Source: a virus
Length of the DNA stretch: 31,751 nucleotides
Strand: one strand, 5' to 3'
IMG/VR virus record: IMGVR_UViG_3300031707_000110
Coordinates: 1-31,751 of that record
Below, one piece after another: positions 1 through 18,561 of this stretch. The stretch's first letter is position 1, and every line of letters begins with the position of its first letter. Both the position numbers and the translations under genes were made by a program. The notes beneath the pieces were generated by a model that had not been told where the DNA came from, made no database searches, and saw only the letters and a program-made list of their open reading frames with translations.

Positions 1-468
1 CGCGAACTTAAATAGCCTTTCTAAATTCTTCTTTAAGTTTTTCCAATCACTTGAATCATTGCTTCCGCCAGTATAATCTTTATCGTGCTTGGCTGTGCGG
101 ATCAAAATGTCTTCATACCAACTATCTGAAAAGTGCCTTACATCAGAAGTTGACAGATAGGCAAATCTGCCGCTTGTGTTATTTTTGATAAAACAAGAAA
201 CTTCAAAGTGTCCTCTTGACCAATTAACTATCTCGCAGTTATCCGGGAGTTGTTTGGCTAATTCTTTTTTGAACTCTTTAGCGAATTGAGCGAACTCTGG
301 AGTTAAGGAAGAAGAGCTTTCAAAATCATATCCGAGCCATTTCTCCATCCCTGTTTTATCTTTATTATCTTCTAACTTCTTTTGTAGTCCTTCAATTTCT
401 TGCTGTAAATAACTTATCTGTGCGACTCTTTCTTGAATTTGTTCTGTGATTAACTCTTGGACTTGCAT
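1..468 (-). CDS. Hypothetical protein, N-terminal 156 codons (runs off window)
   Basis: The reading frame is open from ATG at 468 to base 1 with no stop, so the C-terminus lies outside the window. AGGAGG (475-480) lies 6 nt upstream of the ATG. Residues 1-40 are rich in Gln, Glu, Lys and Leu at heptad-like spacing and probably form a coiled coil. The rest is mixed and soluble-looking, with no signal peptide or membrane segment. I do not recognise the family. It is the last gene seen in the minus-strand early operon. Confidence 0.8.
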   Translation of the reverse strand, partial: MQVQELITEQIQERVAQISYLQQEIEGLQKKLEDNKDKTGMEKWLGYDFESSSSLTPEFAQFAKEFKKELAKQLPDNCEIVNWSRGHFEVSCFIKNNTSGRFAYLSTSDVRHFSDSWYEDILIRTAKHDKDYTGGSNDSSDWKNLKKNLERLFKFA

Positions 469-518
469 TTCTAACCTCCTTTATGATTTTAAGCGCGAAT
501 TTCCTCGCTTCTTGTAAA

Positions 519-644
519 TCATACGTTATTTTTAGATAATCTTCTGATAACTTCCTGCGCTCCTTTTTTATAAACTGTAACGCAGACTAAAATTCCTGCT
601 TCATCATAGACAGCCCAGAAGCGACCATACTTTTCAAGTTTCAT
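519..644 (-). CDS. Small hypothetical protein, 41 aa
   Basis: ATG at 644 follows GGGGAGGTGATATAGCA, a strong ribosome binding site that overlaps the stop of the preceding gene. The product begins MKLEKYGRFWAVYDEAG and continues with VCVTVYKKGAQEV, a compact beta-rich pattern typical of small phage accessory proteins. There are no motifs to assign a function. It ends about 50 nt before the ATG of the 1-468 gene. Confidence 0.75.
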   Translation of the reverse strand: MKLEKYGRFWAVYDEAGILVCVTVYKKGAQEVIRRLSKNNV

Positions 645-646
645 TG

Positions 647-808
647 CTATATCACCTCCCCCTCAATTATTCTGATATTGGCTTCAAAGCCAGTTCCATG
701 ATTTCGTCTCCACCATTGTAAGAAGTCATAATCTCCGCAGTCTTGCATACCAAATTTCTTTTTCATTTTATTCAACGAACTTCTTTTAACAGTGTATTCT
801 CTTTGCAT
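647..808 (-). CDS. Small hypothetical protein, 53 aa
   Basis: ATG at 808 has AAAGGAGGTGGTATAAA directly upstream, and the stop (TAG) is two bases before the next start. The protein is basic at the N-terminus (QREYTVKRSSLNKMKKKFG) and then carries an aromatic patch FLQWWRRNHG. The family is not recognised. It belongs to the same tightly spaced minus operon. Confidence 0.75.
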   Translation of the reverse strand: MQREYTVKRSSLNKMKKKFGMQDCGDYDFLQWWRRNHGTGFEANIRIIEGEVI

Positions 809-809
809 T

Positions 810-1028
810 TTATACCACCTCCTTTAATGTAGTGAATCTTAAATCTTCGGGATTAGTAGCGCAACCTGTAAAATCTTGAAACCTATCCCATTGTCCATCG
901 CACTTGTAAACTACAAAGATATATTCGGCGTTCCAAGATTTTATACGACCTTTCTCTTTTTTGAAGTTATCGTCATATAAAACCCATTTTCCAATATCTT
1001 CTTTGCGTAAATCGGCTAAATCAATCAT
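810..1028 (-). CDS. Hypothetical protein, 72 aa
   Basis: ATG at 1028 follows AAGGAGGCGTT. The sequence has a small beta-barrel character: GKWVLYDDNFKKEKGRIKSW, then YIFVVYKC, then a short helix at the end. Such patterns occur in small SH3-like phage proteins, but this is only a structural impression. It contains one Cys pair (C43, C56). Function is unknown. Confidence 0.75.
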   Translation of the reverse strand: MIDLADLRKEDIGKWVLYDDNFKKEKGRIKSWNAEYIFVVYKCDGQWDRFQDFTGCATNPEDLRFTTLKEVV

Positions 1029-1037
1029 AACGCCTCC

Positions 1038-1319
1038 TTAATATCTGTATCTTTTGTATGCTTCGTCATCACAGGGCATACACATTTTGATATTGCGCTC
1101 CATACAGACTTTATCTCCTTGATCTCTAATCCATTCCGGAGTGTTAGTAGCAAAGTGGCAGTAAATAGCCCAGTCGTTGTTTCCACCTTTGACTGCAACC
1201 CACCTTAATTCATTTCCGCTTCCGGTCATAAATAATCCGAGTTCATTATCAATAGCAGTGCCTGTTGCGAATATTTCTCTATATCTAAATTCTTTTAACT
1301 TTTCTAAAGTTAGCATCAT
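1038..1319 (-). CDS. Hypothetical protein, 93 aa
   Basis: The start is set at the ATGATG at 1319-1314, where GGAGGTGAT lies just upstream; a longer frame starting at 1334 would put the ribosome binding site inside the gene. The ATG overlaps the TGA of the 1316-1492 gene (ATGA), implying translational coupling. Residues such as WAIYCHF and a C-terminal MCMPCDDEAYKRYRY patch suggest a small soluble protein with a CxxC-like pair. Function is not recognised. Confidence 0.75.
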   Translation of the reverse strand: MMLTLEKLKEFRYREIFATGTAIDNELGLFMTGSGNELRWVAVKGGNNDWAIYCHFATNTPEWIRDQGDKVCMERNIKMCMPCDDEAYKRYRY

Positions 1320-1492
1320 ATCACCTCCTTCCATTTAGTAATTATTTTCATTTCGTTATCTATTTCCATTTTTTCTTCAAAGATAATCACTTTAATTCTA
1401 AAAGAAGATAACGGTTCTCTTTGCCTAGAGAACCTGAAGCCGAGATAATTAAGTATCATCTTCTTCAAACTTTCTTTCAGTATCTCTTGCAT
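1316..1492 (-). CDS. Hypothetical protein, 58 aa, directly downstream of hammerhead A
   Basis: The ATG at 1492 is preferred over the one at 1510 because AGGAG (1499-1503) is correctly spaced from it. That site abuts stem II of the ribozyme at 1503-1556, so folding of the ribozyme could affect access to the start. The protein is amphipathic, with a basic region (GFRFSRQREP) followed by beta strands (FRIKVIIFEEKMEI). Family is unknown. Confidence 0.65.
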   Translation of the reverse strand: MQEILKESLKKMILNYLGFRFSRQREPLSSFRIKVIIFEEKMEIDNEMKIITKWKEVI

Positions 1493-1502
1493 AAAAATCT
1501 CC

Positions 1503-1556
1503 TCTCTCATCAGTTATCGCTTTACGATAAGACCTACCTTTCGGCAGGTTTCGAGA
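1503..1556 (-). ncRNA. Type II hammerhead ribozyme A
   Basis: Read on the minus strand, the order is: stem II 5' strand UCUC (1556-1553); GAAA (1552-1549); stem III CCUGCC (1548-1543), loop GAAA, GGUAGG (1538-1533); U16.1 and C17 (1532, 1531); stem I UUAUCG (1530-1525), loop UAAAG, CGAUAA (1519-1514); CUGAUGA (1513-1507); stem II 3' strand GAGA (1506-1503). Every conserved core base of the hammerhead is present and the cleavage triplet is GUC, with the cut predicted between 1531 and 1530. It starts right after the stop of the 51-aa gene and ends on the ribosome binding site of the next gene. Confidence 0.92.
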
Positions 1557-1712
1557 TTATTCAACTATGTTTTTCGGCTCTACCATCACATCATTAGAAT
1601 AACTGTATTTGTTATCTACTACTACTTTATAGGTTATTCCTTCTTCTAAAGTCCTTATTTCTACGACTTTAGCCCTGATTAAAATCTCATCACCGACTTT
1701 AATCTCTTGCAT
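1557..1712 (-). CDS. Small hypothetical protein, 51 aa
   Basis: ATG at 1712 follows AAAGGAGGTTCAAA. The product starts MQEIKVGDEILIRAKVVEIR and has alternating hydrophobic residues throughout (TYKVVVDNKYSYSNDVMVEP), consistent with an OB- or SH3-like small barrel. Function is unknown. Its TAA stop (1557-1559) is immediately followed by hammerhead A. Confidence 0.75.
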   Translation of the reverse strand: MQEIKVGDEILIRAKVVEIRTLEEGITYKVVVDNKYSYSNDVMVEPKNIVE

Positions 1713-1728
1713 TTTGAACCTCCTTTTT

Positions 1729-2148
1729 TTAGTTTATTCTGTAAATAAAATACTCTCCTTCTTCGTTTTCCTCTCCATCATAGCCAGATAAAAAATGTCC
1801 TCTACCATCAGCACTAATAGCGTCTTCAATGAACTCATCTAAGTTTTCAATCATACACTGAATAGCAGCCTGAGCATCTTCACATTGTTCTTGTATTTTG
1901 CTTATACTCTTTTCAAGCTCAGGAGTATATCCGGCTTTAGTATGGTCTGCAATAAAAGAAGCGTTGAAAGCCCAGAGGCTATCTTTGATATTTTCAGCAC
2001 AGGCTTTATCCGCTTCTTCATCCGTGCCGATAGCATATTCTTTATCTCCTAAAGAATAAACTTCTAATCCATAGTGGTCATAGTTTCTTAACTGTAAATC
2101 ATCTTCTTCACAATCTAAAAACTTCGCTAACGCTTTTTCTTTTGTCAT
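1729..2148 (-). CDS. Acidic hypothetical phage protein, 139 aa
   Basis: ATG at 2148 follows AAAGGAGAAAAGCA. The protein is strongly acidic (for example DCEEDDLQL, GTDEEADKACAE, YDGEENEEGEY), with a central helical part (ELEKSISKIQEQCEDAQ) and a C-terminal beta segment EYFIYRIN. There is no signal peptide. Acidic small early proteins in phages sometimes act as DNA mimics, but nothing here proves that; function is unknown. It is one of the larger genes of the minus operon. Confidence 0.85.
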   Translation of the reverse strand: MTKEKALAKFLDCEEDDLQLRNYDHYGLEVYSLGDKEYAIGTDEEADKACAENIKDSLWAFNASFIADHTKAGYTPELEKSISKIQEQCEDAQAAIQCMIENLDEFIEDAISADGRGHFLSGYDGEENEEGEYFIYRIN

Positions 2149-2235
2149 TGCTTTTCTCCTTTCTTATCTCGATTAGCATAGAGCTGGATTAAAAGATAAT
2201 TTTAATCTTAAATCATTCATATTATCGCTGAACTT

Positions 2236-2412
2236 TTATTCCGAATTTTCGCGTTGTTTAATATGGCTTTCACAAACTATTACACTGCCTAAAACAAAAT
2301 GATGCAGAGTCATAACTTCTAAGATCTTAAACTCTTTGATATTCCGGCCACAGATAATACAATCTCCGTCTTTCTGCCTTTTGCGTAAAGTCTTTTCAAG
2401 ATTGCTGTCCAA
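2236..2412 (-). CDS. Small Cys-rich protein with TTG start, 58 aa
   Basis: An in-frame GTG at 2421 overlaps the ribosome binding site AAAGGAGG itself, so the TTG at 2412, spaced 7 nt from it, is the likelier start. The product has DCIICGRNIKEF, later VIVCESHIK: a CxxC plus CxxH arrangement that could bind one zinc. Its upstream neighbour (2418-2558) stops within this binding site. Function is not recognised. Confidence 0.65.
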   Translation of the reverse strand: MDSNLEKTLRKRQKDGDCIICGRNIKEFKILEVMTLHHFVLGSVIVCESHIKQRENSE

Positions 2413-2417
2413 ATAAA

Positions 2418-2558
2418 TCACCTCCTTTCAACATTGTATTCAAAGAAAACCTCTAATACTTCAATAAGTCTATTTACTTCAAAATAATCCTTAACTTCTT
2501 TGGTCTTGAGATAAATAACTTTCTTTCCTTGCTTAATCCCGAGAGTAATCTTTTTCAT
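2418..2558 (-). CDS. Small hypothetical protein, 46 aa, downstream of hammerhead B
   Basis: ATG at 2558 is preceded by TTGGAGGCAAAAACCTT. The sequence starts MKKITLGIKQGKKVIYLKTK and continues with a helix (YFEVNRLIEVLEVFFEY). The stop TGA overlaps the binding site of the next gene. It is the first gene after the ribozyme at 2596-2666. No family is recognised. Confidence 0.7.
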   Translation of the reverse strand: MKKITLGIKQGKKVIYLKTKEVKDYFEVNRLIEVLEVFFEYNVERR

Positions 2559-2595
2559 AAGGTTTTTGCCTCCAAGATAATTAAATCATCTCTTT

Positions 2596-2666
2596 GCCTC
2601 ATCAGAGCCGAGCATCTCTCGGCTGACGCCTTTGCTTAAATCTCTTTGTAGCAAAGGCGTTTCGGC
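2596..2666 (-). ncRNA. Type II hammerhead ribozyme B
   Basis: On the minus strand: stem II 5' strand GCC (2666-2664); GAAA (2663-2660); stem III CGCCUUUGC (2659-2651), a 15-nt loop, GCAAAGGCG (2635-2627); U16.1, C17 (2626, 2625); stem I AGCCGAG (2624-2618), loop AGAUG, CUCGGCU (2612-2606); CUGAUGA (2605-2599); stem II 3' strand GGC (2598-2596). The core is complete, stems I and III are perfect (7 and 9 bp) and the cleavage triplet is GUC. Predicted cleavage is between 2625 and 2624. The element begins three bases after the TAA of the 56-aa gene. Confidence 0.92.
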
Positions 2667-2668
2667 TA

Positions 2669-2839
2669 TTACGCTTTTATCAACTCTATATCTGCTTCTT
2701 GCTTTTCATCTGGTATCTCCTCGCAGATAATATGGCTTTCATAAACATCGGAGCCGAACTCCACTTTTACTTCTTGCTCTGCTTTTTCTTTTGAGGCAGA
2801 GCGGACTAAAAACTCTGCGGTAAATTTGAATAGCGGCAT
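2669..2839 (-). CDS. Small hypothetical protein, 56 aa
   Basis: ATG at 2839 follows AAAGGAGGGCTAACT. The product is FKFTAEFLVRSASKEKAEQE at residues 4-23 and ends in an acidic tail (ICEEIPDEKQEADIELIKA). The pattern resembles the neighbouring 54-aa gene (2842-3006), which also has a beta strand, then a helix of the type AxxEEEA, suggesting related small alpha/beta folds. Hammerhead B begins 3 nt downstream. Function unknown. Confidence 0.75.
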   Translation of the reverse strand: MPLFKFTAEFLVRSASKEKAEQEVKVEFGSDVYESHIICEEIPDEKQEADIELIKA

Positions 2840-2841
2840 AG

Positions 2842-3006
2842 TTAGCCCTCCTTTACTTCGTTAACCTCTCCGATAGCCCAATACGACACAATAATCTCGC
2901 AGGCTGTTTTTCTTGCTTCTTCTTCGTCTTTTGCCTCTACTTCCATCTCTTTGATACCATCCATACCCGGATAGTTGATATACCATTCAACTTTGTATTT
3001 TGGCAT
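2842..3006 (-). CDS. Small hypothetical protein, 54 aa
   Basis: The start at 3006 is chosen over an upstream in-frame ATG because GGGAGGTTAAAG precedes it and because the longer form would overlap the 154-aa gene. The sequence MPKYKVEWYINYPGMDG, then EVEAKDEEEARKTA, suggests a beta strand, loop and helix. No known motif. It follows the YubB-like gene with a 2-nt gap. Confidence 0.75.
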   Translation of the reverse strand: MPKYKVEWYINYPGMDGIKEMEVEAKDEEEARKTACEIIVSYWAIGEVNEVKEG

Positions 3007-3008
3007 CT

Positions 3009-3473
3009 TTAACCTCCCCTGGAGCCAACATAGTCGCAACATTTCTCTGCGACCACTTTGCCTTGCTCAATTCTCAATACCCCGTGAAAACCCATTCCGC
3101 CTTCATAGTAGCGATAATCAAAAGTCAACTTAGGAAACACCTGAGCCATCTTCTTTACCACAGGGACTATTGGCGACCAGGCACTCTGGAAAGTATAAAA
3201 CAACTCTCCGTCTCTTTCTTCTAATTCTGTCTCATAACATCCCCACTTCGTCCCCCAGTTTTTAATGCACCAATGATAGCCGAATTTCCCATAATCTTTT
3301 ATCGCCTCTTTCGGCGCTGGAATAAAAGAGTTGCAACAGAGCATTTCAATTTTTGGGTCTGTTTCATTATCGCTGTCTGCCCACGGATATTTGCCTCTTG
3401 CCTTTTGCTTAAATCTTTCCAATTCTTTTTTGTCTCCTGTAATAGTTAAATCATTTTCAACGTGGTTAGGCAT
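3009..3473 (-). CDS. YubB-like (DUF1281-type) ferredoxin-fold protein, 154 aa
   Basis: ATG at 3473 follows TTAAGGAGGTGAAGTAAAG. The N-terminus MPNHVENDLTITGDKKELER followed by FKQKARG is the signature opening of the YubB/DUF1281 family found on plasmids and phages. The family's general role is unknown; a ferredoxin-like fold is assumed for its N-terminal domain. Later segments (WCIKNWGTKWGCYETE, FQSAWSPIVPVVKKM, YYEGGMGFHG) also fit that family. No signal peptide is present. Confidence 0.85.
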   Translation of the reverse strand: MPNHVENDLTITGDKKELERFKQKARGKYPWADSDNETDPKIEMLCCNSFIPAPKEAIKDYGKFGYHWCIKNWGTKWGCYETELEERDGELFYTFQSAWSPIVPVVKKMAQVFPKLTFDYRYYEGGMGFHGVLRIEQGKVVAEKCCDYVGSRGG

Positions 3474-3475
3474 CT

Positions 3476-3601
3476 TTACTTCACCTCCTTAAATTCTTTA
3501 CACTTCTTTGCTGTATTGTCCCCTTTGGACTTTGGGCAATAAGAACTTCCTTCATTGCCGAAAGGCTTCATCTCTTTACAGTAGCGGCATAATCTTTTCA
3601 T
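3476..3601 (-). CDS. Zinc-binding-like mini-protein, 41 aa
   Basis: ATG at 3601 follows AAGGAGGCAAA and overlaps the stop of the 83-aa gene upstream. The sequence contains four cysteines (LCRYCKEM, SYCPKS, KKCKEF), a CxxC followed by two single Cys, which could hold one zinc. It is very basic. The 33-aa gene at 6322-6423 and the 31-aa gene at 5128-5223 share this Cys-rich small basic style. Function unknown. Confidence 0.7.
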   Translation of the reverse strand: MKRLCRYCKEMKPFGNEGSSYCPKSKGDNTAKKCKEFKEVK

Positions 3602-3849
3602 TTTGCCTCCTTAGATAATGCTTTGTATAATTCTTCAATAAGTCTTGGCTTCTGCTTTAACTCTTTGTAATCTCCGCGAAACGCTAACACTGCTACCCAA
3701 TAGTTATGAATATCATATCGCAATTTTAGAGATAAAGCGTGAAAACAAGTATTACAGGGAAAGCCTAAATGCTGAACCCTGCACTCTGTGGCTTCAAATA
3801 ACTTTTCTTGCAACATCTCTTTTGTTATTTTCAACTTTTTCTTTAACAT
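3598..3849 (-). CDS. Hypothetical protein, 83 aa
   Basis: ATG at 3849 follows GAGAGGAGGTGAAAGATT. The sequence is basic and helical at the N-terminus (MLKKKLKITKEMLQEKLFEA), with a three-Cys centre (ECRVQHLGFPCNTCFHALSL) and a C-terminal helix (RLIEELYKALSKEAK). The Cys/His cluster may bind metal. The gene overlaps the 55-aa frame at 3794-3961, which ends inside it. Function unknown. Confidence 0.75.
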   Translation of the reverse strand: MLKKKLKITKEMLQEKLFEATECRVQHLGFPCNTCFHALSLKLRYDIHNYWVAVLAFRGDYKELKQKPRLIEELYKALSKEAK

Positions 3850-3961
3850 AATCTTTCACCTCCTCTCGGTAATGTTTTGAGTTTGTCTTATACTCTCGGA
3901 CTATTCCCATCGGATAGCCGAAAGATAATAAGTGGCGCTGGACTCTATTGAGTTTTTGCAT
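3794..3961 (-). CDS. Small basic hypothetical protein, 55 aa, overlapping its neighbours
   Basis: ATG at 3961 has GAGGT eight nt upstream. The protein starts MQKLNRVQRHLLSFGYPMG and is rich in Lys and Arg. It overlaps the previous gene by 17 nt and the next by 56 nt, which is longer than usual in this operon, so its last third may simply read through the following gene in another frame. Function unknown. Confidence 0.5.
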   Translation of the reverse strand: MQKLNRVQRHLLSFGYPMGIVREYKTNSKHYREEVKDYVKEKVENNKRDVARKVI

Positions 3962-4124
3962 TTTCCAATACCTCTGTCATTGTCGGGAAGTCTCCCGACA
4001 TATCTCTGCCTGAAATCCTGCCTGCTTTCTGCCAACCCAGCGGAGATAATTTGCTTTCGGCGTTAAAACTACTTCCGACTGTGTAGCAGAGTTTATTGTC
4101 TTTAACGAATAGTGTCATTCGCAT
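3945..4124 (-). CDS. Small hypothetical protein, 59 aa
   Basis: ATG at 4124 follows AGGAGATGATAA at ideal spacing; an alternative ATG at 4118 would shorten it by two residues. The product begins MRMTLFVKDNKLCYTVGSSF and has LSPLGWQKAGRISGRDMSGD in the middle. No recognised domain. It overlaps the end of the 65-aa gene by 23 nt. Confidence 0.65.
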   Translation of the reverse strand: MRMTLFVKDNKLCYTVGSSFNAESKLSPLGWQKAGRISGRDMSGDFPTMTEVLENAKTQ

Positions 4125-4299
4125 TTATCATCTCCTGAGATAAGTTTCTCATCTCTTCTTTTAATTCGTCTGTAAAATCTGCTTTCTCCAAGCACTTCAG
4201 CGTTGCAGATAATTCTTTAATCATAAACTTTGCGTGCCGAGTTAAAGGGCGATCTTCTTTATCAATATAAACACCCTCGTTAACTTTCTTTAATTTCAT
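4102..4299 (-). CDS. Small helical hypothetical protein, 65 aa
   Basis: The ATG at 4299 is preferred to one at 4353 because AAGGAGGCAGCGAA precedes it and it overlaps the TAA/TGA region of the gene before. The product is mostly helical (FMIKELSATLKCLEKADF, ELKEEMRNLSQEMINAN). No signal or membrane segment. Function unknown. Confidence 0.7.
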   Translation of the reverse strand: MKLKKVNEGVYIDKEDRPLTRHAKFMIKELSATLKCLEKADFTDELKEEMRNLSQEMINANDTIR

Positions 4300-4547
4300 T
4301 TCGCTGCCTCCTTCAATACATTCTTTACTTCTCTTGCCCTCTTGCCTCGCCAACTCCCCAGATTTGAAAGCACGTAGAGAAGTTGCACTTTTAACTCTTC
4401 GCCAACCATCATCTTGCCGGTCTTTTGGTGTAGAACCTCTACTGCGTTTCCTTTGGAGATAACCACTGCGTTCTGGCTATCGCCTAATTCCAGAGCCGCT
4501 TGAGCGTAGCTCTTGGCATAATCAGCGAAGCCTCCCCTGCGCTTCAT
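4296..4547 (-). CDS. Hypothetical protein, 83 aa
   Basis: ATG at 4547 is preceded by GAGGCGGTAGTAA. The protein is basic at the start (MKRRGGFADYAKSYAQA) and has alternating strands (AVVISKGNAVEVLHQKTGK). It overlaps a 19-codon frame upstream that has the better ribosome binding site, so translation may be coupled. Function unknown. Confidence 0.7.
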   Translation of the reverse strand: MKRRGGFADYAKSYAQAALELGDSQNAVVISKGNAVEVLHQKTGKMMVGEELKVQLLYVLSNLGSWRGKRAREVKNVLKEAAK

Positions 4548-4581
4548 TTACTACCGCCTCTAACGCTTCTTTGAGTTGCAT
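4522..4581 (-). CDS. Possible 19-codon coupling ORF
   Basis: ATG at 4581 follows AAGGAGATAAGCG, a better ribosome binding site than that of the gene it overlaps. It encodes MQLKEALEAVVNEAQGRLR, an amphipathic helix-like peptide, and stops 26 nt inside the 83-aa gene. It could be a real micro-protein or a translation-coupling leader. Confidence 0.35.
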   Translation of the reverse strand: MQLKEALEAVVNEAQGRLR

Positions 4582-4592
4582 CGCTTATCTCC

Positions 4593-4901
4593 TTATCTTG
4601 CTGGAACTGGCAGGCCTGCGTTAATCTTTTCCTGCCGGCATCTCTTCATATTCTTTATTAACCAGTCAGACAAAAGATCTATATCCAATAACGCTTCGTT
4701 GTTTCTGCCCCAGCCCTCTGCAACTTTTTTTGTCAATACCTGAATTGCCGTCGCCGTCAAGACCCAGGCATTATCAGTCTTGGGATTTTTGAATTCCTCG
4801 CAGACAGATAATAATCTTTTTATTGCCAAAGGTCTTTGAACGCAAAATAATTCTAAATCTTTTACTGGCTCGCTGTTTTCAATAATCTCTCGCACTGTCA
4901 T
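4593..4901 (-). CDS. Hypothetical protein, 102 aa, downstream of hammerhead C
   Basis: The frame is open back to 5030, but the start is placed at ATG 4901 because GAGAGGAGGTGAGAAAG precedes it; the 43 upstream codons coincide with the structured ribozyme region and look non-coding. The product is helical (MTVREIIENSEPVKDLELF, IQVLTKKVAEGWG, LLSDWLIKNMKRC). No family recognised. Confidence 0.75.
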   Translation of the reverse strand: MTVREIIENSEPVKDLELFCVQRPLAIKRLLSVCEEFKNPKTDNAWVLTATAIQVLTKKVAEGWGRNNEALLDIDLLSDWLIKNMKRCRQEKINAGLPVPAR

Positions 4902-4940
4902 CTTTCTCACCTCCTCTCTAAAAAGTTTTCTGATACAAAA

Positions 4941-5050
4941 TAAACTCATCAGGGCTTTACGCCGATAGCAGAGATAAAGGGGGTCTTGTATCTTTTTATA
5001 ACCTTCGCCCAATTTATAGATTACAAGCAATATCTCCGCTATTTCGTTTA
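4941..5050 (-). ncRNA. Type II hammerhead ribozyme C (long stem III)
   Basis: On the minus strand: stem II 5' strand UAAAC (5050-5046); GAAA (5045-5042); stem III UAGCGGAGAUA (5041-5031) pairing with UAUCUCUGCUA (4976-4966) over 11 bp with one G-U, capped by a 54-nt insertion; U16.1, C17 (4965, 4964); stem I GGC-GUAAA-GCC (4963-4953); CUGAUGA (4952-4946); stem II 3' strand GUUUA (4945-4941). The core is complete and the cleavage triplet is AUC. Stem I is only 3 bp, which makes this copy less certain. Stem II begins on the TAA of a tiny ORF. Confidence 0.78.
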
Positions 5051-5098
5051 ATCTTTATAACTTTCAGGGAATAGGAACTCTAACATCTCGGTATCCAC
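5048..5098 (-). CDS. Possible 16-codon micro-ORF before hammerhead C
   Basis: A GTG at 5098 lies five nt after AAAGG and opens a 16-residue frame (DTEMLEFLFPESYKD after the start). Its TAA forms part of stem II of the ribozyme, the same stop-then-ribozyme arrangement seen at the other two sites. It is too short to judge on composition. Confidence 0.25.
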   Translation of the reverse strand: MDTEMLEFLFPESYKD

Positions 5099-5127
5099 TT
5101 TAACCTTTCCGCGCTGTAGCGTTATGC

Positions 5128-5223
5128 TTAGCGCTTAATAGATAATGGACATCTCTGACAATTTCTTGTCGTGCAACTATTACATACAGGGAAACCTAAC
5201 AGCCAAGATAAAAAGCGTACCAT
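5128..5223 (-). CDS. Cys-rich micro-protein, 31 aa
   Basis: ATG at 5223 follows AAAGGGGTGATTTAAG. The peptide has a hydrophobic start (MVRFLSWLLGFPVC) and then CNSCTTRNCQRC, i.e. four closely spaced cysteines able to bind zinc. Its stop lies in a small inverted repeat (GCGCT...AGCGC around 5111-5134). Function unknown. Confidence 0.5.
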   Translation of the reverse strand: MVRFLSWLLGFPVCNSCTTRNCQRCPLSIKR

Positions 5224-5224
5224 C

Positions 5225-5413
5225 TTAAATCACCCCTTTCAGAATTAAATTTTCTGCATCTTTGCTTTTATATTCAGAGTTTTGAATGTGCATCTCGCCA
5301 GTCTCTTTGTCTTTCAACTGTATTTGAATTAACACTTTTTGCACTTCCATATATTCTAATTCTCTTTTGTTATACTGCGCTTTCCAATCTTCAATCCAGT
5401 TAAGCAGTTTCAT
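5225..5413 (-). CDS. Small hypothetical protein, 62 aa
   Basis: ATG at 5413 follows GGGAGAGTAAAAG. The product has an aromatic helical N-terminus (MKLLNWIEDWKAQYNKRELE), a central strand (VQKVLIQIQLKDK) and a polar C-terminus. The gene ends within the ribosome binding site of the 31-aa frame. Function unknown. Confidence 0.7.
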   Translation of the reverse strand: MKLLNWIEDWKAQYNKRELEYMEVQKVLIQIQLKDKETGEMHIQNSEYKSKDAENLILKGVI

Positions 5414-5416
5414 CTT

Positions 5417-5584
5417 TTACTCTCCCTTCTCAATATAATCTCTGAACTTCTGCTCGTTGAAAGAACTGTTTTCGGTTTTTAAGCTTTTACAGACGGCAGA
5501 GATAATTACTTCTTTACTCTTCGGATTTTCGAACTCTATTCCTTTTATCGTCTTCGCTATCAGAATATAATCTCTTCTGTGCAT
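5417..5584 (-). CDS. Small hypothetical protein, 55 aa
   Basis: The start at 5584 has GAAAGGAGGTATAAAG upstream, so the longer frame from 5602 is rejected. The sequence MHRRDYILIAKTIKGIEFEN followed by KEVIISAVCKSLK, then NSSFNEQKFRDYIEKGE reads as a helical protein of a size common in phage early regions. Function unknown. Confidence 0.7.
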   Translation of the reverse strand: MHRRDYILIAKTIKGIEFENPKSKEVIISAVCKSLKTENSSFNEQKFRDYIEKGE

Positions 5585-5651
5585 CTTTATACCTCCTTTC
5601 ATTTTTTTGGAGTTCTTTGAAGTTAATGATACTATTGAGGGCGTTAATCAT
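5514..5651 (-). CDS. Small hypothetical protein, 45 aa, coupled by ATGA
   Basis: The ATG at 5651 overlaps the TGA of the 108-aa gene (ATGA) and has GAGGTGAAAAG directly upstream, which supports translation. The N-terminal half (MINALNSIINFKELQKNERR) lies in otherwise empty sequence; the C-terminal half overlaps the next gene by 71 nt and is highly charged. Function unknown. Confidence 0.55.
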   Translation of the reverse strand: MINALNSIINFKELQKNERRYKDAQKRLYSDSEDDKRNRVRKSEE

Positions 5652-5974
5652 CTTTTCACCTCTATAATCTTTGGCTCTTTTTCTTTTCTTACGCTGGGGT
5701 GGAAACAGGCAAAATCGAACTCAAAATTAAGATGGACGCTGACATTATCTCCTTTTTGAAGATAGGTATAAGTTTCTTTATCCAGAGGTATTAGCAACTT
5801 AAAATCTTCAACCCCTTTTAACAAACAGAGAGCAGAATAATTTAATCTTGTTTTCTCTATGTAAATCGCTTCTCTCTTAAATAATCCTACTCTCTTTTTG
5901 CCTGTGCTTTCAAGATACTTTTCCTCTTTAGAGATTATATTTTCTACTACACCTACAAAGTATTCACTATGCAT
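5648..5974 (-). CDS. Hypothetical protein, 108 aa
   Basis: ATG at 5974 follows AGGAGGTGAGACA. The protein is beta-rich (SEYFVGVVENIISKEEKYLE, then KRVGLFKREAIYIEKTRLNY, then NVSVHLNFEFDFACFH) and ends in a basic tail. No signal peptide. It is not recognised. It lies between the lysozyme-like gene and the 45-aa gene. Confidence 0.75.
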   Translation of the reverse strand: MHSEYFVGVVENIISKEEKYLESTGKKRVGLFKREAIYIEKTRLNYSALCLLKGVEDFKLLIPLDKETYTYLQKGDNVSVHLNFEFDFACFHPSVRKEKEPKIIEVKR

Positions 5975-5978
5975 TGTC

Positions 5979-6329
5979 TCACCTCCTTTCTAAAAAGTAT
6001 TTAACATTCTTAACCCAGTTAGAGTTAAGCGGATGCGCTTTTGGCGGGCAATAACGAGAGCCCAAGAACTCTAAATAATCTTTATACTGCGTTTGCTTCT
6101 TAAATCTTTTTCGGTTATTGCGGACTGTGTTAAAGCATATCCGCCTTGCTTCCGCTTCGTCTTTGTAAGGAATTGAACGGATGCCATAAAGATAGGTTGC
6201 TTTATACCCGCCTTCAGCGTGAAAGATGGCATTGACTATCTGGGCATCTGTCCACTCTTTCGCAAAGGAAGCAGAGTGGAAGATAAGCAGGAAAACGAGT
6301 GCGAGATAATAACGCTTGGCTTTATTCAT
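5979..6329 (-). CDS. Secreted lysozyme-like protein, 116 aa
   Basis: The ATG at 6329 overlaps the TAA of the 33-aa gene (ATGAATAA), so it is preferred over 6374, which lies inside that gene. Residues 1-23 form a signal peptide: basic NKAKRYY, hydrophobic LALVFLLIF, then HSASFA before KEW. The mature part has IVNAIFHAEGGYKATY, whose Glu in the AEGG segment fits the catalytic Glu of lysozyme/transglycosylase-like folds, then GIRSIP, FLGSRYCP and NSNWVKNVKYF, which occur in small phage-associated muramidase-like proteins. It probably cuts or loosens peptidoglycan. Its place in the early-type operon rather than a late lysis cassette is unusual. Confidence 0.65.
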   Translation of the reverse strand: MNKAKRYYLALVFLLIFHSASFAKEWTDAQIVNAIFHAEGGYKATYLYGIRSIPYKDEAEARRICFNTVRNNRKRFKKQTQYKDYLEFLGSRYCPPKAHPLNSNWVKNVKYFLERR

Positions 6330-6423
6330 TTGTCTTTCGCTTTTTATACCCTTTACATCTCTTACAGTTATCATTGCTTCCGCAGACTTTCCAATACCTA
6401 CAACTCTTTTTTGAAGTATTCAT
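6322..6423 (-). CDS. Cys-rich basic micro-protein, 33 aa
   Basis: ATG at 6423 is preceded by AGGAAAGATTGAA. The peptide contains SCRYWKVCGSNDNCKRCKGY, four cysteines with a final CxxC, then a very basic tail (KKRKTNE). A zinc-binding role is plausible. Its stop overlaps the start of the lysozyme-like gene. It is the gene nearest the candidate origin on this side. Confidence 0.6.
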   Translation of the reverse strand: MNTSKKSCRYWKVCGSNDNCKRCKGYKKRKTNE

Positions 6424-6435
6424 TTCAATCTTTCC

Positions 6436-6770
6436 TGTGGATAAACCTGTTAATAACTATGTTAAATCATTGAAGATAAAGACATTAGGATAAAACCTGT
6501 TAATAACCTGTTAATAACTTTGTAAGTTATTTAATAATAATACTTTACAATGTTTTTTATTCTTTATCTTTGAACTCTTGCTCTGTGAATATCCTGTGGA
6601 TAAACTGTTAACAACTCTATAAGTCGTTGGTATTGTTATCTATGCTAAAATATAAATTGCTGTAGCGTGGAGCGGTGGAGATACCGCCCTCCTCTCCTCC
6701 ATTCTTTCAACTCCTCTATAATCTCTTATTATATATTATATATATATAAGAAATATATAATATACTTCCT
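6436..6770. other. Candidate replication origin: DnaA boxes, repeats, AT-rich DNA
   Basis: Two perfect DnaA-box sequences (TTATCCACA on the minus strand) lie at 6436-6444 and 6595-6603. Between them are three copies of CCTGTTAATAAC. From about 6722 to 6770 the sequence is nearly pure A/T with alternating TATA, which would melt easily. There is no convincing gene. This combination is what a DnaA-dependent origin looks like; it could also be a control region for the minus operon. Confidence 0.55.
6446..6518. repeat. CCTGTTAATAAC direct repeats (three copies)
   Basis: Copies sit at 6446-6457, 6496-6507 and 6507-6518; the last two share one base and so are 11 bp apart, about one helical turn. 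A diverged relative (CTGTTAACAAC) is at 6605-6615. They are adjacent to the DnaA boxes and could be iterons or operator sites. Confidence 0.7.
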
Positions 6771-9302: not shown

Positions 9303-11831
9303 ATGGAACACAATTTATTCAGAGTGAAATCTCTGGAAGAAGGCAAAGAAGCAGTAGTTGGTTCGTGTAATGGCTTTAGCAAGGAAGAACGCTGGAGTAA
9401 GGAGACGCCTGTGTTTGCCGAAAAGATATTAAAATGTATTACGAAAATTGTTCCATTAGGCTCTCTTGTCTCTATTTCAATGCTTGATTTTGGAGTTGGT
9501 TGTGGTCGACTTGCCAAAGAGATATTAGAACGAAGTTCAAGCACTAAAATTCTCGGAGTTGACACTTCTATTGACATGCTTGAACAGGCAATACAATATG
9601 TAAATAATGAAAGATTTGAAGCAAAAATTCCTACTGATATTCCTAAAGATAAGAAATTCGACCTCATCTATTGCGTCTATACCCTCCAGCACGTCCCTGC
9701 AATAGAGATTCGCGAAATCTTATCTAGAATATACAACCATCTTAAAGACGATGGCTTTTTCATATACTGCTCAAGTGATTACCGCATGTCTATACGCTTT
9801 GATGGTAAGGGTTTCTTTGATGACAGGTTTTTAGGAGTTAATTTACAGGAAGAGATAGAAAGATATTTTGATAAAGTTGAGCCGTTATTCATTGAAGAAG
9901 ATTTTAAGGATAACTATATCTTAAAGAAGATGATTACCGGCTGTGATAGCGGTCTGGCGCATCCAGCGTTTGTATATCGAAAGAAAATCGAAAGTAAAGA
10001 AGTTAAGCCGATAATTGAAGTTGAAGGAATACCTATTTATGAAAAGAATGGTAAACTCTTTGCTGGTAAAAACGCAAAAGAAAAAGTAATGCAACCGCAA
10101 AAACTCCTTCTCATCAACCGTCTCTCTCCGGGTGATATTCTTGTTATGACTAATGCTATCAGGGACCTGCATTTAGCTCATCCGGGAAAGTTCATTACTG
10201 ATGTGCGGACGCCCTGCCCGGATATCTTTGCCAATAATCCTTATATCACTAAGTTAACTTATAATGAAGCTAATTATAATCAAGTGAATACTTGGTTTCA
10301 GACTAATATAGGCAAGACTAAGATGTTAGAGGATGTTATGCTTATTGATATGCAATATCCTTTAATCCATCAGTCTGGAGCCAGAGGCGCTCATTTTGCT
10401 GAAGGGCATCGGGAGTTTCTTGAAGAGACGCTTAAAATCAAGATACCACAGACTAAAATCAGACCAGAACTGTATCTTACTGAACAAGAAAAAGCTATAT
10501 GGGCAACAGGTGTATTAGGTAATAATATGGGTTATAAAGGCAAATACTGGATCATTAATGCCGGCTCTAAGGGCGACTATACTTTGAAGCAATATCCGTA
10601 TTATCAAGAAGTCGTAGATTTACTCAAAGATAAAATTACTTTTGTCCAGATAGGAGTTAAATCTCATAACCATAAACCACTTGAAAATGTAATTGATATG
10701 GTGGGTAAGACTGATAATGTGAGAGATTTATTCAGTTTAATTTATAACGCCGAAGGAGTGATTACCTGCGTGGCCTTTCCTATGCACATCGCGGCTGCTT
10801 TTAAGAAACCCTGCGTGGTAGTGGCCGGTGCCAGAGAAGGCACACGCTGGGAGTTATATCCAAATCACCGCTTTATTTATGTCAATGGCTGCCTGCCTTG
10901 CGCTGATTATGATGGTTGTTGGAGATCAAGACAAGAAGAATGCAATTATAAGAAAAATGGTGTTCCTATTTGTATGACTTTAATAAAGCCGGAAGAAGTG
11001 TCGCGAGAAGTAGAGAGGTATTATGAGGGTGGAATTTTGAAATATGATATTAAAGAACCGGTTATACTTAACCTAAAAGGAGAAGAAAAAATGGATAAAG
11101 AAAAAATAGATTTTGCACACGCAGGATTAATGGCAGAGATTATGACTAATAGTAATAAAGATATTGTCATTGAACCTCTGCCTTCAGGCATTAATTCCCC
11201 TCAAGCAACCTCATCAATTTTTAATATCTTGCGTATCCTTAAACAGTTAACTCCTAGCGATACTTACCTTGAGGCCTATCAGTGGCATTACGACAAAAGA
11301 AAAGATAAGTTTATGGATATTTATCACTTTATGCAATATCTCGGTGCGACAGTCAGGCCTAAACGGATTTTAGAGATAGGCACGCGCACCGGCATTTCAA
11401 TATGTCAGTTGCTTTCAGCATATCTTAATTACAATGAATTGGAAAGAGTGATACTCTGCGACTTATTCAATGATGGGATTTCAACTCCGAGTGTAGTCTT
11501 AAATGCTCTGAAATATCTGAATATTCCGGTTGATAAAGTGCAGTTTATTATAGGTAATTCTTTAGAAGAGATACCGAAGCTGATGGGTAAGGAAAGCTTC
11601 TCGTATGTCTTGGTGGATGGTTCTCATGACCGAAATGATGCTATGCAAGACCTTGAAAATTCTTATAAGTTAATTGAAAAAGAAGGTTATGTAATTTTTG
11701 ATGACCTCAGTATAGACGGCTGTAATCTTCAACCAGTTTGGGATAATTTCAAACAGAAATATTATGCTGATTTTATATTTATGGAAGATGGTGATAATGG
11801 TAAAGGTATAGGCATTGCTAAAAGGATCTAA
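9303..11831 (+). CDS. Methyltransferase - GT9 glycosyltransferase - methyltransferase fusion, 842 aa
   Basis: ATG at 9303 follows AAAAGGAGCTAAAAA. Residues about 55-175 are a class I SAM methyltransferase: motif I MLDFGVGCGRL (60-70), GVDTSIDMLEQA, then FDLIYCVYTLQHVP. Residues about 263-565 resemble GT9 (heptosyltransferase-like) enzymes: KLLLINRLSPGDILVMTNAI near 267, then FPMHIAAAFKKPCVVVAGA near 492, followed by a Cys-rich stretch. Residues about 597-842 are a second methyltransferase (ILEIGTRTGISICQL near 689; VLVDGSHDRNDAM). An internal ribosome binding site and ATG at 11091 could make this last domain separately. It opens the sugar cluster; the acceptor is unknown. Confidence 0.85.
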   Translation: MEHNLFRVKSLEEGKEAVVGSCNGFSKEERWSKETPVFAEKILKCITKIVPLGSLVSISMLDFGVGCGRLAKEILERSSSTKILGVDTSIDMLEQAIQYVNNERFEAKIPTDIPKDKKFDLIYCVYTLQHVPAIEIREILSRIYNHLKDDGFFIYCSSDYRMSIRFDGKGFFDDRFLGVNLQEEIERYFDKVEPLFIEEDFKDNYILKKMITGCDSGLAHPAFVYRKKIESKEVKPIIEVEGIPIYEKNGKLFAGKNAKEKVMQPQKLLLINRLSPGDILVMTNAIRDLHLAHPGKFITDVRTPCPDIFANNPYITKLTYNEANYNQVNTWFQTNIGKTKMLEDVMLIDMQYPLIHQSGARGAHFAEGHREFLEETLKIKIPQTKIRPELYLTEQEKAIWATGVLGNNMGYKGKYWIINAGSKGDYTLKQYPYYQEVVDLLKDKITFVQIGVKSHNHKPLENVIDMVGKTDNVRDLFSLIYNAEGVITCVAFPMHIAAAFKKPCVVVAGAREGTRWELYPNHRFIYVNGCLPCADYDGCWRSRQEECNYKKNGVPICMTLIKPEEVSREVERYYEGGILKYDIKEPVILNLKGEEKMDKEKIDFAHAGLMAEIMTNSNKDIVIEPLPSGINSPQATSSIFNILRILKQLTPSDTYLEAYQWHYDKRKDKFMDIYHFMQYLGATVRPKRILEIGTRTGISICQLLSAYLNYNELERVILCDLFNDGISTPSVVLNALKYLNIPVDKVQFIIGNSLEEIPKLMGKESFSYVLVDGSHDRNDAMQDLENSYKLIEKEGYVIFDDLSIDGCNLQPVWDNFKQKYYADFIFMEDGDNGKGIGIAKRI

Positions 11832-12184
11832 TGGTTCTTGAAAATATTATTAATGAATTCCGGGCAAAATATGGAAAGCCACCAGCAATAACCGCTGAGG
11901 CAATAGAACACGAACATTGTAGATTGCACTGCCTTTATATGGCTAATAACTTCAAAGTAGAACACACACCAGATTATTTTTTATGCGGTAAGGCAGAAAT
12001 TGTAGGTGCAGCCAGTTATAGGCATAGCGATGAAGATACTATTAGATTTTTACTCTATGAAAAGATAGCTAATAGTCCAGAACATCTTAAAGTTTTATTA
12101 GAGTCAAAATATTTAGCACATTGGTTTTATGTAAATGATTACATAGGATACCTTGTGATTAGAGGGGGGGAAAGGATAATATGA
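11831..12184 (+). CDS. CAP/SCP-like domain protein, 117 aa
   Basis: The ATG shares one base with the TAA of the fusion gene, and AAAGGATCTA serves as ribosome binding site. The order HEHCRLHCLYMANN, then VEHTPDY, GKAEIVGAAS, and YEKIANSPEHLKVLLE, then IGYLVIRGG follows the CAP fold: a histidine-bearing first helix, H...E core, and the W/A-x-SPxH helix before the final strands. CAP domains are often secreted, but no signal peptide is present here. It could also be an unrelated small alpha-beta protein. Role in the sugar cluster is unclear. Confidence 0.5.
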   Translation: MVLENIINEFRAKYGKPPAITAEAIEHEHCRLHCLYMANNFKVEHTPDYFLCGKAEIVGAASYRHSDEDTIRFLLYEKIANSPEHLKVLLESKYLAHWFYVNDYIGYLVIRGGERII

Positions 12185-13074
12185 AATTTGAAATTATTAT
12201 GCCCTACAGGCCTTATTCTCATGGAGATTTAAGTTCGCCACATGGGGATTTAGTACAGCTTGAAGATGATAGCTGGAGAAATAGTTCTGGAAAGATCTTC
12301 AAGGAAGGATTAGAATATGAAAAACATCGAGTCAGTATTCGACAAGCAATAGAGGCTTTGAATAAAAATTCTTTCTACAAACATCACATAATAGTTGCGA
12401 TAGATTCGGATGTTTATCCAAATAAATCTTTTTTAAATAATTTTGAAAATGTATCTATCATTAAGTCAGAATTTAAAGTCCCTAAAGAACATTATGGAGT
12501 AAGAATGCCTCTTGCTTGTAAGGCTGCTATTGATTCTCTTCCGGGGGAAGGTTTTCTTTGCCATGTGTATTTAGCTGATACTATTTGCTCTAAGAATTGG
12601 GATAAATACATAGTTGAGGCTATTAATAGGCTTGGAGAAGATAAAGTGTATGTCCCTATTTGGGTTGAAGGTTCTCATGGGGCGTTTCAAGAATTAGTTG
12701 GAATAGAATTGACACCTGATTTTATCTGGGAAAAATGTTCTAAAAAAATTGCTGCTGGAGCGTTTTTTCTTCCGGATCCTAGACGAAGCTATATCCAAGA
12801 AGAAGATTTTGAACACTACATTGAAATATTGCAGAAGGGAAACAGAGATTGTATTATTGAGAATTGTGGGGGAAGAATATTTGGTTGGCTGATATGTTTA
12901 TGTATGAAAATTTCTTATGCCAAGCAAATAAAATTTGATATCACTGATGTACATTCTATAGATACTAAGTTTGATTCACAACTTGGTGGATTGGGATTGA
13001 AGAAAGTAGTGGTTACGAACTCATTTATCTGGCATCCACAATGTTCGCATTTAGAACTAAGGTTGAAATATTAA
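12181..13074 (+). CDS. GT-A-type glycosyltransferase-like protein, 297 aa
   Basis: The ATG overlaps the previous TGA and follows GGGGAAAGGATAAT. The protein starts with FEIIMPYRPYSHGD and has a long helix leading to HHIIVAIDSDVYPN, where the Asp-rich strand end resembles the DxD region of GT-A enzymes; LCHVYLADTICSKNWDKYI resembles the acceptor-side segment of GT2 proteins. No membrane segments except possible hydrophobic patches near FGWLICLCM. Fold and role are inferred; substrate unknown. It is followed by a 45-nt gap and the dehydrase-like gene. Confidence 0.55.
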   Translation: MKFEIIMPYRPYSHGDLSSPHGDLVQLEDDSWRNSSGKIFKEGLEYEKHRVSIRQAIEALNKNSFYKHHIIVAIDSDVYPNKSFLNNFENVSIIKSEFKVPKEHYGVRMPLACKAAIDSLPGEGFLCHVYLADTICSKNWDKYIVEAINRLGEDKVYVPIWVEGSHGAFQELVGIELTPDFIWEKCSKKIAAGAFFLPDPRRSYIQEEDFEHYIEILQKGNRDCIIENCGGRIFGWLICLCMKISYAKQIKFDITDVHSIDTKFDSQLGGLGLKKVVVTNSFIWHPQCSHLELRLKY

Positions 13075-13119
13075 GTTTAAAATCTATAAACTATAAAGCA
13101 AGGAAGGAGATTTTACTCA

Positions 13120-14259
13120 ATGATTAAAGTTGGAGATTATTTCACAACTCCTGAAGATGAACAATCTGTATTAGAAGTTTTGAGATCTAATCGTTTGTCA
13201 GAGGGTAGTAAAGTCAGGGAATTTGAGGAGAAATGGGCTGAATTCTGTGGGACTAAATACTGCGTACTTACTAATTCTGGAACTTCCGCGTTGCTTGCTT
13301 GTCTGGAAGTGATGAAAGATATAACTAAACAAAGAAAGGTTTGGACATCGCCAAATACTTTTATATCCACCGTAAATGCCATAGTATTGTCTGGATTTGA
13401 GCCAGTATTCTCTGATGTGGATAAAGAAACCTTTGTTTTAAAACCGATACTCAATAGGGCTGGGATATTTCTGCCTGTCCATTTATATGGATACCCAGTA
13501 GATATGAACGAATTTAATTACTCTTGGATGATAGAAGATGCATGTGAGGCTCATGGTTCATTATATAAAGGCAAGAAAGTTGGTTCCATAGGGCTTATGG
13601 GATGTTTTTCTTTCTACATAGCCCACAACATCCAAGTCGGGGATATGGGGGCGATTATCACGAATGACCTTGAGATATATCGGGAATTAAAAAAGGTCAA
13701 GGCTCATGGCCGGATGTGCGAATGCACTGTTTGCCACAGGGCAGAGGGCAAGTGTCCGAATAAAGATAAAGGTTTTGATCCTCGCTTTACCCATACCCGA
13801 ATAGCTTATAACTTCAAAACTACTGAGATGCAAGCGGCGTTAGGGTTAAATCAACTCAAACATGCCGATGAAATAATCCGTAAGCGGCAAGAGAATGTTT
13901 TATACTTAAATACTGGTTTAAGAGATATAAAAGATTTACAACTCCCAATTTGGAATACAACAGTTAGTTATCTTGCATATCCTTTGATATTAAGAAATCC
14001 TGAGATAAACCGTAATGAATTCTGCAATAAGATTGAAAAAGCTGGAGTGGAAACTAGACCTTTCTTTTCTTGCGTACCTACACAACAACCTGCTTACGCA
14101 TATTTAAGAGAACAATGGAAAGACAAACTTCCTAATGCGGAATGGTTAGGGTTAAGAGGATTTCATATAGGGTGTCATCAATATTTGACAAAAGAAGAAT
14201 TAGATTTTATAATAGAGACAGTTAGAAAGGAAATTATTTATGATAGTAGAAAATATTGA
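13120..14259 (+). CDS. DegT-family RfbH/E1-like 3-dehydrase (Lys replaced by His, Fe-S cysteines), 379 aa
   Basis: ATG at 13120 follows AAGGAAGGAGATTTTACTCA. The fold type I PLP enzyme marks are clear: NSGTSALLACL (52-62), TSPNTFISTVNAIVLSG, HLYGYPVDM and IEDACEAHG (138-146) with the cofactor-binding Asp140. The residue that normally carries PLP as a Schiff base is not Lys but His169 (CFSFYIAHNI), as in ColD and RfbH/E1, which are 3-dehydrases rather than aminotransferases. Cys142, Cys200, Cys202 and Cys212 (plus Cys205) follow the E1 iron-sulfur spacing C-x57-C-x-C, differing only before the last Cys. It therefore probably removes the 3-hydroxyl from a nucleotide-linked 4-keto-6-deoxy sugar. 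Length is shorter than RfbH (about 437). No E3-type reductase is in the window. Confidence 0.82.
   Translation: MIKVGDYFTTPEDEQSVLEVLRSNRLSEGSKVREFEEKWAEFCGTKYCVLTNSGTSALLACLEVMKDITKQRKVWTSPNTFISTVNAIVLSGFEPVFSDVDKETFVLKPILNRAGIFLPVHLYGYPVDMNEFNYSWMIEDACEAHGSLYKGKKVGSIGLMGCFSFYIAHNIQVGDMGAIITNDLEIYRELKKVKAHGRMCECTVCHRAEGKCPNKDKGFDPRFTHTRIAYNFKTTEMQAALGLNQLKHADEIIRKRQENVLYLNTGLRDIKDLQLPIWNTTVSYLAYPLILRNPEINRNEFCNKIEKAGVETRPFFSCVPTQQPAYAYLREQWKDKLPNAEWLGLRGFHIGCHQYLTKEELDFIIETVRKEIIYDSRKY
14185..14213 (+). promoter_or_regulatory. Consensus sigma70 promoter inside the dehydrase gene
   Basis: TTGACA (14185-14190) and TATAAT (14208-14213) are both exact consensus hexamers, separated by 17 bp. The predicted start (about 14220) is 20 nt before the next gene's ATG at 14240. 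It lies in coding sequence for the C-terminus of the dehydrase, so it could be coincidental, but sequence-wise it is the strongest promoter in the window. Confidence 0.55.
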
Positions 14260-14908
14260 GATTCTTGAGTATAATAAAGATATTATGGAATTTAAAGGAG
14301 TTGATTTTAAGAGTATGCCGATAGATCAATGGCTTTATTTCTGCAAGGCTAATTTGACTTTTGGCGAACCCGGTATAGATTATTATGAACTTGCTGCTTT
14401 GCATCAAGCCTGTGAGATTTTTGGTAAACGATCATTAACGATAGTAGAAACAGGTATGTGTTTTGGCACTACTACCAGATATTTTTTAGTAAGGGTTATA
14501 AAATATGGCGGGGAATTACATACTTTTGAAGTTACTATCCGTGATAAATTCAAAGAAACTATGCAGGAACTCGGGCTTTGGGATAAAATAAATTTACATG
14601 GACATTCTATGAAAGACCCCTGGAGTAAAGAAATAGATGTTCTTTTTATAGATTCTGAACATGCTTTAGAAAATACATTAGGTGAGTATATGCATTTTAG
14701 AGAGTGGCTTAAAGCAGATTCAATTATAGGTTTTCATGACACTAATTGTTGTACTGGCGTAATAAAGGCTCTTGAGATGATACAGGAAGTCGACGAGTTA
14801 GAACTTATAAGTGAATGCAGTGATAGGGCTCATGCTGGGGTAAAATTCTTTAGAAGGAAGATTAAAAATAGGACAGATAGGCCTTGGAATACAGGAAAAA
14901 GAATATAG
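14240..14908 (+). CDS. CmcI-like (Methyltransf_24 type) methyltransferase, 222 aa
   Basis: The ATG at 14240 overlaps the dehydrase gene by 20 nt and follows AAAGGAAATTATTT. It contains LTIVETGMCFGTTTRYFLVR (about 66-85), the SAM-binding glycine-rich loop, then VLFIDSEHALENTLGEY and IIGFHDTN, which match the cephalosporin hydroxylase/CmcI-type methyltransferases with an Asp-Ser/Gly-x-His step. Such enzymes methylate sugars or small metabolites. It belongs to the same cluster as two similar domains (C-terminal part of 9303-11831 and 15954-16652). Confidence 0.8.
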   Translation: MIVENIEILEYNKDIMEFKGVDFKSMPIDQWLYFCKANLTFGEPGIDYYELAALHQACEIFGKRSLTIVETGMCFGTTTRYFLVRVIKYGGELHTFEVTIRDKFKETMQELGLWDKINLHGHSMKDPWSKEIDVLFIDSEHALENTLGEYMHFREWLKADSIIGFHDTNCCTGVIKALEMIQEVDELELISECSDRAHAGVKFFRRKIKNRTDRPWNTGKRI

Positions 14909-14910
14909 CC

Positions 14911-18502: not shown

Positions 18503-18545
18503 AAAATAGCCAAAATTATTGATACAAGATAGTTTTGGCTATTTT
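18503..18545 (+). terminator. Intrinsic terminator after the sugar cluster
   Basis: AAAATAGCCAAAA (18503-18515) and TTTTGGCTATTTT (18533-18545) form a perfect 13-bp stem with a 17-nt loop and T-rich 3' side. It separates the GT9-like gene from the LamG/Ser-rich gene. A weak promoter-like TTGATA (18519) with TTTTAT at 17-bp spacing lies in the loop and right arm and could restart transcription. Confidence 0.75.
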
Positions 18546-18561
18546 ATTTGAAGGATATAAG

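Follow-up and report, generated by a model that had tools for sequence, protein, structure and literature searches.

The stretch of viral DNA analysed here (IMG/VR record IMGVR_UViG_3300031707_000110, positions 1 to 31,751, referred to below as the window of 31,751 nucleotides) contains three type II hammerhead ribozymes, designated A, B and C, which lie within 3.5 kb on one strand of the early operon, flank small genes on that strand, and each start at a stop codon. Judging from sequence comparison, these are probably cis-acting ribozymes that cut a long early mRNA and whose main effect is to leave the message of the upstream gene with a 3' end that is short and protected. The stop-codon placement of type II hammerheads appears to recur in hundreds of unrelated phages, and no statement of such a rule was found in the openly licensed literature.

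Type II hammerheads were described in 2011 by Perreault et al., who reported clusters flanking prophage genes, showed that three phage arrays cleave in vitro and that one does so when expressed in E. coli, and suggested that phages divide their long transcripts in this way into mRNAs of operon or gene length (PMC3088659). Both the clustering of hammerheads in phages and the proposal that polycistronic RNA is their target have thus already been published, and the window adds another example. The role of bacterial and phage hammerheads has been open since that time, and papers published afterwards continue to describe the cause of their association with genes as unknown. The quantitative positional rule, the conserved orthologs and the arrays of up to 12 ribozymes described below make hammerhead function directly testable; the rule also offers an easy way of recognising real hammerheads during phage genome annotation, and self-processing is indicated as an alternative to terminators.

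Structure of the ribozymes and their flanking genes

A descriptor scan of both strands of the window, which required the core CTGANGA, the GAAA element, U16.1-H17 and three helices, yields exactly three matches, each of type II and each located on the minus strand in the early operon. The mean over 300 dinucleotide shuffles is 0.04 matches per window, and three matches are never reached; a chance origin of the three elements is accordingly rejected. A later scan of the window for type I and type III hammerheads yielded no additional elements. Ribozyme A occupies positions 1503-1556 (CTGATGA at 1507-1513), B positions 2596-2666 (CTGATGA at 2599-2605) and C positions 4941-5050 (CTGATGA at 4946-4952), and cleavage is predicted between 1531 (C17) and 1530 in A, between 2625 (C17) and 2624 in B, and between 4964 (C17) and 4963 in C.

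Every copy has the canonical catalytic core (CUGANGA, GAAA and U16.1, with C at H17), including the A15.1-U16.1 pair, and in all three stems I and III are closed by loops and stem II is open, as the type II form requires. The lengths of stems I, II and III are 7, 4 and 7 base pairs in A, 7, 3 and 11 in B, and 3, 5 and 12 in C, where the unusually long stem III spans 79 nt from A15.1 to C17. Folded in isolation, A and B give the hammerhead structure (z scores of -3.3 and -4.1). Across the copies for which energies were computed, the stem III hairpin is stable in every case (-10.7 to -31 kcal/mol), while the energy of stem I is variable (-0.3 to -10.8 kcal/mol).

The three elements share with the published type II hammerhead (RF02276; PMC3088659) the core, the three helices, the open stem II, C17 and the association with phage DNA, but A and C fall below the detection level of Rfam and the stem III of C is longer than usual. 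RF02276 matches B alone, at 41.1 bits (gathering cut-off 37), and A and C are unlisted at E<=1, so that the initial annotation of the window had recognised two copies which the public model misses; Rfam gives no credible match to any other RNA in the window. A further difference concerns the pseudoknot which loop I forms with the 3' tail in the majority of type II hammerheads. The orthologs of B have complementarity between loop I and the tail (AGAUA/UAUCU), but this stretch of the tail matches a motif that is abundant throughout the genome, and the putative pairing of B is separated from stem II by a considerable distance on the downstream side instead of adjoining it.

The genes that flank the ribozymes are all on the minus strand. 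Upstream of A is a 51-aa gene (1557-1712), conserved in the related genomes G005, G006, G010 and G032, whose TAA (1557-1559) ends 0 nt before the ribozyme; downstream is a 58-aa gene (1316-1492), whose Shine-Dalgarno sequence (GGAG, about 1499-1502) comes immediately after stem II of the ribozyme. Ribozyme B lies between a 56-aa gene (2669-2839), whose TAA (2669-2671) ends 2 nt before it, and a 46-aa gene (2418-2558). Upstream of C is an open reading frame (ORF) of 16 codons (VDTEMLEFLFPESYKD; 5048-5098), whose TAA (5048-5050) overlaps the ribozyme and is part of its stem II, and downstream is a gene of about 102 aa (4593-4901) with AGGAGG upstream of its ATG. The scan and these coordinates bear out the initial claim that three hammerheads lie in the operon on the early-gene strand, each starting at a stop codon. 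That claim had been qualified by a doubt about the 16-codon ORF. A tblastn search with the early ORFs of the window finds the ORF in G006, G008, G010 and G014 (68-85% identity), G005 has a 15-codon version, and in every relative it ends in ESY[K/R]D and a stop codon that abuts or overlaps the ribozyme. The doubt is removed by this conservation, and the ORF is accepted as a genuine gene.

Conservation in related phages

The window is a fragment of the genome of a tailed phage, and searches with its terminase and capsid genes lead to a family of phages with genomes of about 64 kb in IMG/VR. No close relative was found among cultured phages; the best match to the capsid region has 28.6% identity and comes from a Microcystis phage. 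In the counts that follow, the near-identical genomes G010-G012, G015-G018, G020 and G023 are counted once, and G014 has the same hammerhead copies.

Ribozyme C is present in all five genomes that have the region (the window, G005, G006, G008 and G010), and B in five of six (the window, G006, G008, G010 and G032, but not G005). Ribozyme A is found between the same two genes in the window and in G006, and G032 has a displaced A-type copy (core CTGAAGA) that precedes the next conserved gene, a different one from that which follows A in the window. Relatives without hammerheads at these borders would speak against the initial proposal, and in part this is what is seen: G005, G010 and G032 have no hammerhead at the A border, and in the distant relative G021 (71 kb, 60% terminase identity) a strict scan detects none. 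Among the orthologs, of which there are three to five per copy, 27 helix pair positions have changed on both sides with the pairing retained; stem II of C, for example, changes from UAAAC/GUUUA to AUAGC/GCUAU. Compensatory changes of this kind in the stems, together with an intact catalytic core, indicate selection on the folded ribozyme.

The sequence pattern of B is kept while its neighbours differ between the window, G006, G008 and G010, although in G032 both neighbours match those in the window. Ribozyme C retains its upstream ORF in the relatives, but the downstream gene is an ortholog only in G005 and is unrelated in G006, G008 and G010. All of the relatives examined have some structured insert at the A border, though in several it is something other than a ribozyme. 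In G005 the place of the hammerhead is taken by a tRNA-like gene (G005:27898-28016; L076:7918-7999, minus strand), which ARAGORN reports as tRNA-??? (aatc) with an enlarged anticodon loop and which has a fold z score of -5.5. In G032 (L120) the ortholog of the 51-aa gene is followed by a different branched RNA (z score of -3.1), for which ARAGORN finds no tRNA and Rfam no match, and in G010 (4630-4710) there is a hairpin (z score of -1.9) which starts with ATCTCGAAA, like hammerhead A, and does not contain CTGATGA. Since tRNA-like elements are processing signals in bacteria, the replacement of A by such an element, a single case, is compatible with a processing role.

A separate observation concerns the heptamer ATTATCT (core TTATCT), which occurs 15 times, against 0.56 expected, on the minus strand of positions 1-6500 of the window, in all three reading frames. 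It is also found in G005, and in the tail of B and the stem/loop III of C orthologs. Over whole relatives its strand bias is 100:39 in G006, 48:9 in G024 and 12:46 in G013, apparently independent of gene direction, and it may serve as a signal for a primase, for packaging or of a Chi-like kind.

Stop-codon placement and ribozyme arrays in other phages

The relation between type II hammerheads and stop codons can be evaluated outside this family only if the search itself makes no use of the flanking sequence. Two patterns that cover the ribozyme interior alone, for two sequence classes of stem II, were therefore run over viral contigs, and structural filtering and removal of duplicates left at least 230 type II hammerheads, nearly all of them viral and a handful from the phage family of the window. 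With ORFs called mechanically, 226 of the listed matches are preceded, within 500 nt, by the end of an ORF on the same strand that has 40 codons or more, and the figures for type II hammerheads in this section, other than those for bacteria, refer to the matches listed.

The median distance from the stop codon to GAAA is 4 nt, and the stop codon ends no more than 5 nt from GAAA in 55% of cases, compared with 2.5% for positions drawn at random on the same strand. Where these k-mers occur outside detected hammerheads, a stop codon ends within 5 nt in 9.4% of cases (odds ratio 9.3, p = 4e-28), and terminator-like hairpins and tRNAs in the same contigs lie at median distances of 19 nt and 46 nt past the stop codon. 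Contigs from bacterial genomes show a similar placement, with 17 of 49 type II hammerheads within 5 nt of a stop codon against 2.1% at random. Type I hammerheads lie at stop codons in all eight cases, whereas none of 16 non-redundant type III hammerheads, considered as a control of the same kind of element, does; nearly all of the latter come from one marine phage group, so the result is merely suggestive, and the type I sample is equally limited. The initial proposal that the hammerheads are put to systematic use is supported by this placement in unrelated phages together with the compensatory changes in the orthologs.

The largest array, in L355 (3600-9070, minus strand), packs 12 type II hammerheads into about 5.5 kb, or roughly one per gene, and most of them lie at a stop codon and are followed by a Shine-Dalgarno sequence (mostly GAAGGAGGAC) and a start codon; several of the TGA stop codons form part of stem II. 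Arrays of 8, 7 and 7 type II hammerheads, again roughly one per gene, are found in L182, L335 and L190. The three copies in the window resemble the prophage clusters of Clostridium scindens, Azorhizobium caulinodans and Agrobacterium tumefaciens, in which several same-strand hammerheads flank single genes or short blocks (PMC3088659). The conservation of orthologs and the arrays of up to 12 are new here, and "stop codon" is not a term used in the main text of that study.

In a group of marine phage contigs (L313, L326, L362, L349, L371 and L380), types I and II, and in some contigs also type III, occur within one gene block, with type I at stop codons and type III just before start codons.

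Proposed function, alternatives and other features of the window

If A, B and C act as proposed, each would fold once transcribed and cut the RNA about 25-90 nt past the upstream stop codon. Hammerhead cleavage yields a 2',3'-cyclic phosphate and a 5'-OH, and because the cut in a type II ribozyme separates stem III from stem I, the former is left at the 3' end of the upstream mRNA and the latter at the 5' end of the downstream mRNA. The upstream mRNA would retain its stop codon and terminate in the stem III hairpin with the cyclic phosphate, and the downstream mRNA would begin at stem I with the 5'-OH, a short way before the next Shine-Dalgarno sequence. RNA self-processing would in this way substitute for a transcription terminator or a nuclease site; above all, the upstream gene would acquire a 3' end that is short and protected, and the stability of one mRNA piece would no longer be tied to that of the other. 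The sequences, the conserved structure, the compensatory changes and the placement are observed directly; cleavage in the cell, the chemistry of the ends (from that of known hammerheads) and the effect on stability are what we infer. Whereas the initial annotation had proposed that cutting gives each gene set its own 5' end and stability, the placement at stop codons, the stable stem III and the association of C with its upstream ORF favour the formation of the upstream 3' end as the main task.

Two known systems offer comparisons. The hammerhead HHphage of the haloviruses HF1 and HF2 likewise belongs to a polycistronic early transcript, where it precedes a start codon by 13 nt, with an RNA 5' end mapped to its cleavage site (within 3 nt), but it has a variant core and is a single copy in the leader of the first ORF rather than an intergenic element (PMC3088659). 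The theta (HDV-like) ribozymes beside phage tRNAs are also self-cleaving elements of tailed phages and define where an adjacent RNA ends, but they belong to another ribozyme class and have been proposed to trim the 3' trailers of tRNAs, not mRNAs (PMC10879173).

Several observations weigh against a cleavage role for A, B and C. In addition to the absence of A from its border in three relatives, the isolated fold of C is weaker (z score of -2.1) and its minimum-energy structure is not fully a hammerhead, its stem I has just 3 base pairs in a short region with alternative pairing, and neither A nor C has a clear pairing between loop I and the tail. Furthermore, 4 of the 18 consensus hammerheads tested in 2011 gave no cleavage (PMC3088659).

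It is possible, if somewhat doubtful, that the position of the ribozymes is set by genome compaction alone, the ribozyme simply fitting between the stop codon and the Shine-Dalgarno sequence with the spare 3' space used by the pseudoknot between loop I and the tail, a pairing already known for type II hammerheads. This explanation is compatible with cleavage for the upstream 3' end and denies merely that the stop codon matters. The spacing is as it predicts, with a median slack of 2 nt next to the stop codon and 15 nt before the Shine-Dalgarno sequence (147 cases against 26, p = 1e-21, among the matches listed), but no such tight packing at the stop codon is seen for other structured elements of these contigs, and compaction explains the position of a ribozyme rather than its retention.

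The stop codon would matter directly if the ribozymes were gated by ribosomes, in that a ribosome terminating at a stop codon in or beside stem II would cover this stem and the GAAA strand and block folding, and cutting, coupled in this way to translation, would occur only when upstream translation is sparse or finished. Phage type II hammerheads would then be translation-gated punctuation between genes, up to one per gene, with the terminating ribosome timing the cut. The footprint of a terminating ribosome extends well beyond the median of 4 nt that separates the stop codon from GAAA, whereas hairpins and tRNAs sit farther away; in addition to the TGA codons within stem II of the 12-ribozyme array, 71 of the 115 stop-abutting cases among the matches listed have at least one base of the stop codon inside a continuous stem II. 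An extension of stem II beyond 3 base pairs, however, is no commoner at stop codons than away from them, so the idea that the stop codon is in general specially built into stem II is unsupported, and tight packing from stop codon to Shine-Dalgarno sequence could yield the same spacing. Gating is considered unlikely.

Even less probable is the view that the ribozymes are conserved RNA blocks which mark recombination or mobile boundaries where phages swap small genes of the early region, and that they contribute nothing important to RNA processing. The changing neighbours of B, the retention by C of its upstream but not its downstream gene, and the different gene that follows A in G032 would all fit, and inconstant neighbours were already remarked on in 2011 (PMC3088659), but the compensatory changes around an intact core are the mark of selection on the folded ribozyme, not on DNA identity. 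That A, B and C lack activity or resemble hammerheads by chance, as the detection by Rfam of only one in three might suggest, is very improbable in view of the 0.04 matches expected per window and the conservation with compensatory changes in the relatives.

Some other features of the window lie outside the early operon. The portal protein ORF (23704-26085) has a middle portion that matches PHROGs for thymidylate synthase, PhoH and ribonucleotide reductase, which suggests an intein in the portal gene. An 891-aa protein (18535-21210) has long serine repeats (SSSSSSSSF units) which appear again in a second ORF at the window end (31262-31750). On the late strand, positions 9303-18480 hold a block of methyltransferase-, glycosyltransferase- and aminotransferase-like genes, judged by eye from the translations, which is an unusual cargo for a phage of this size.

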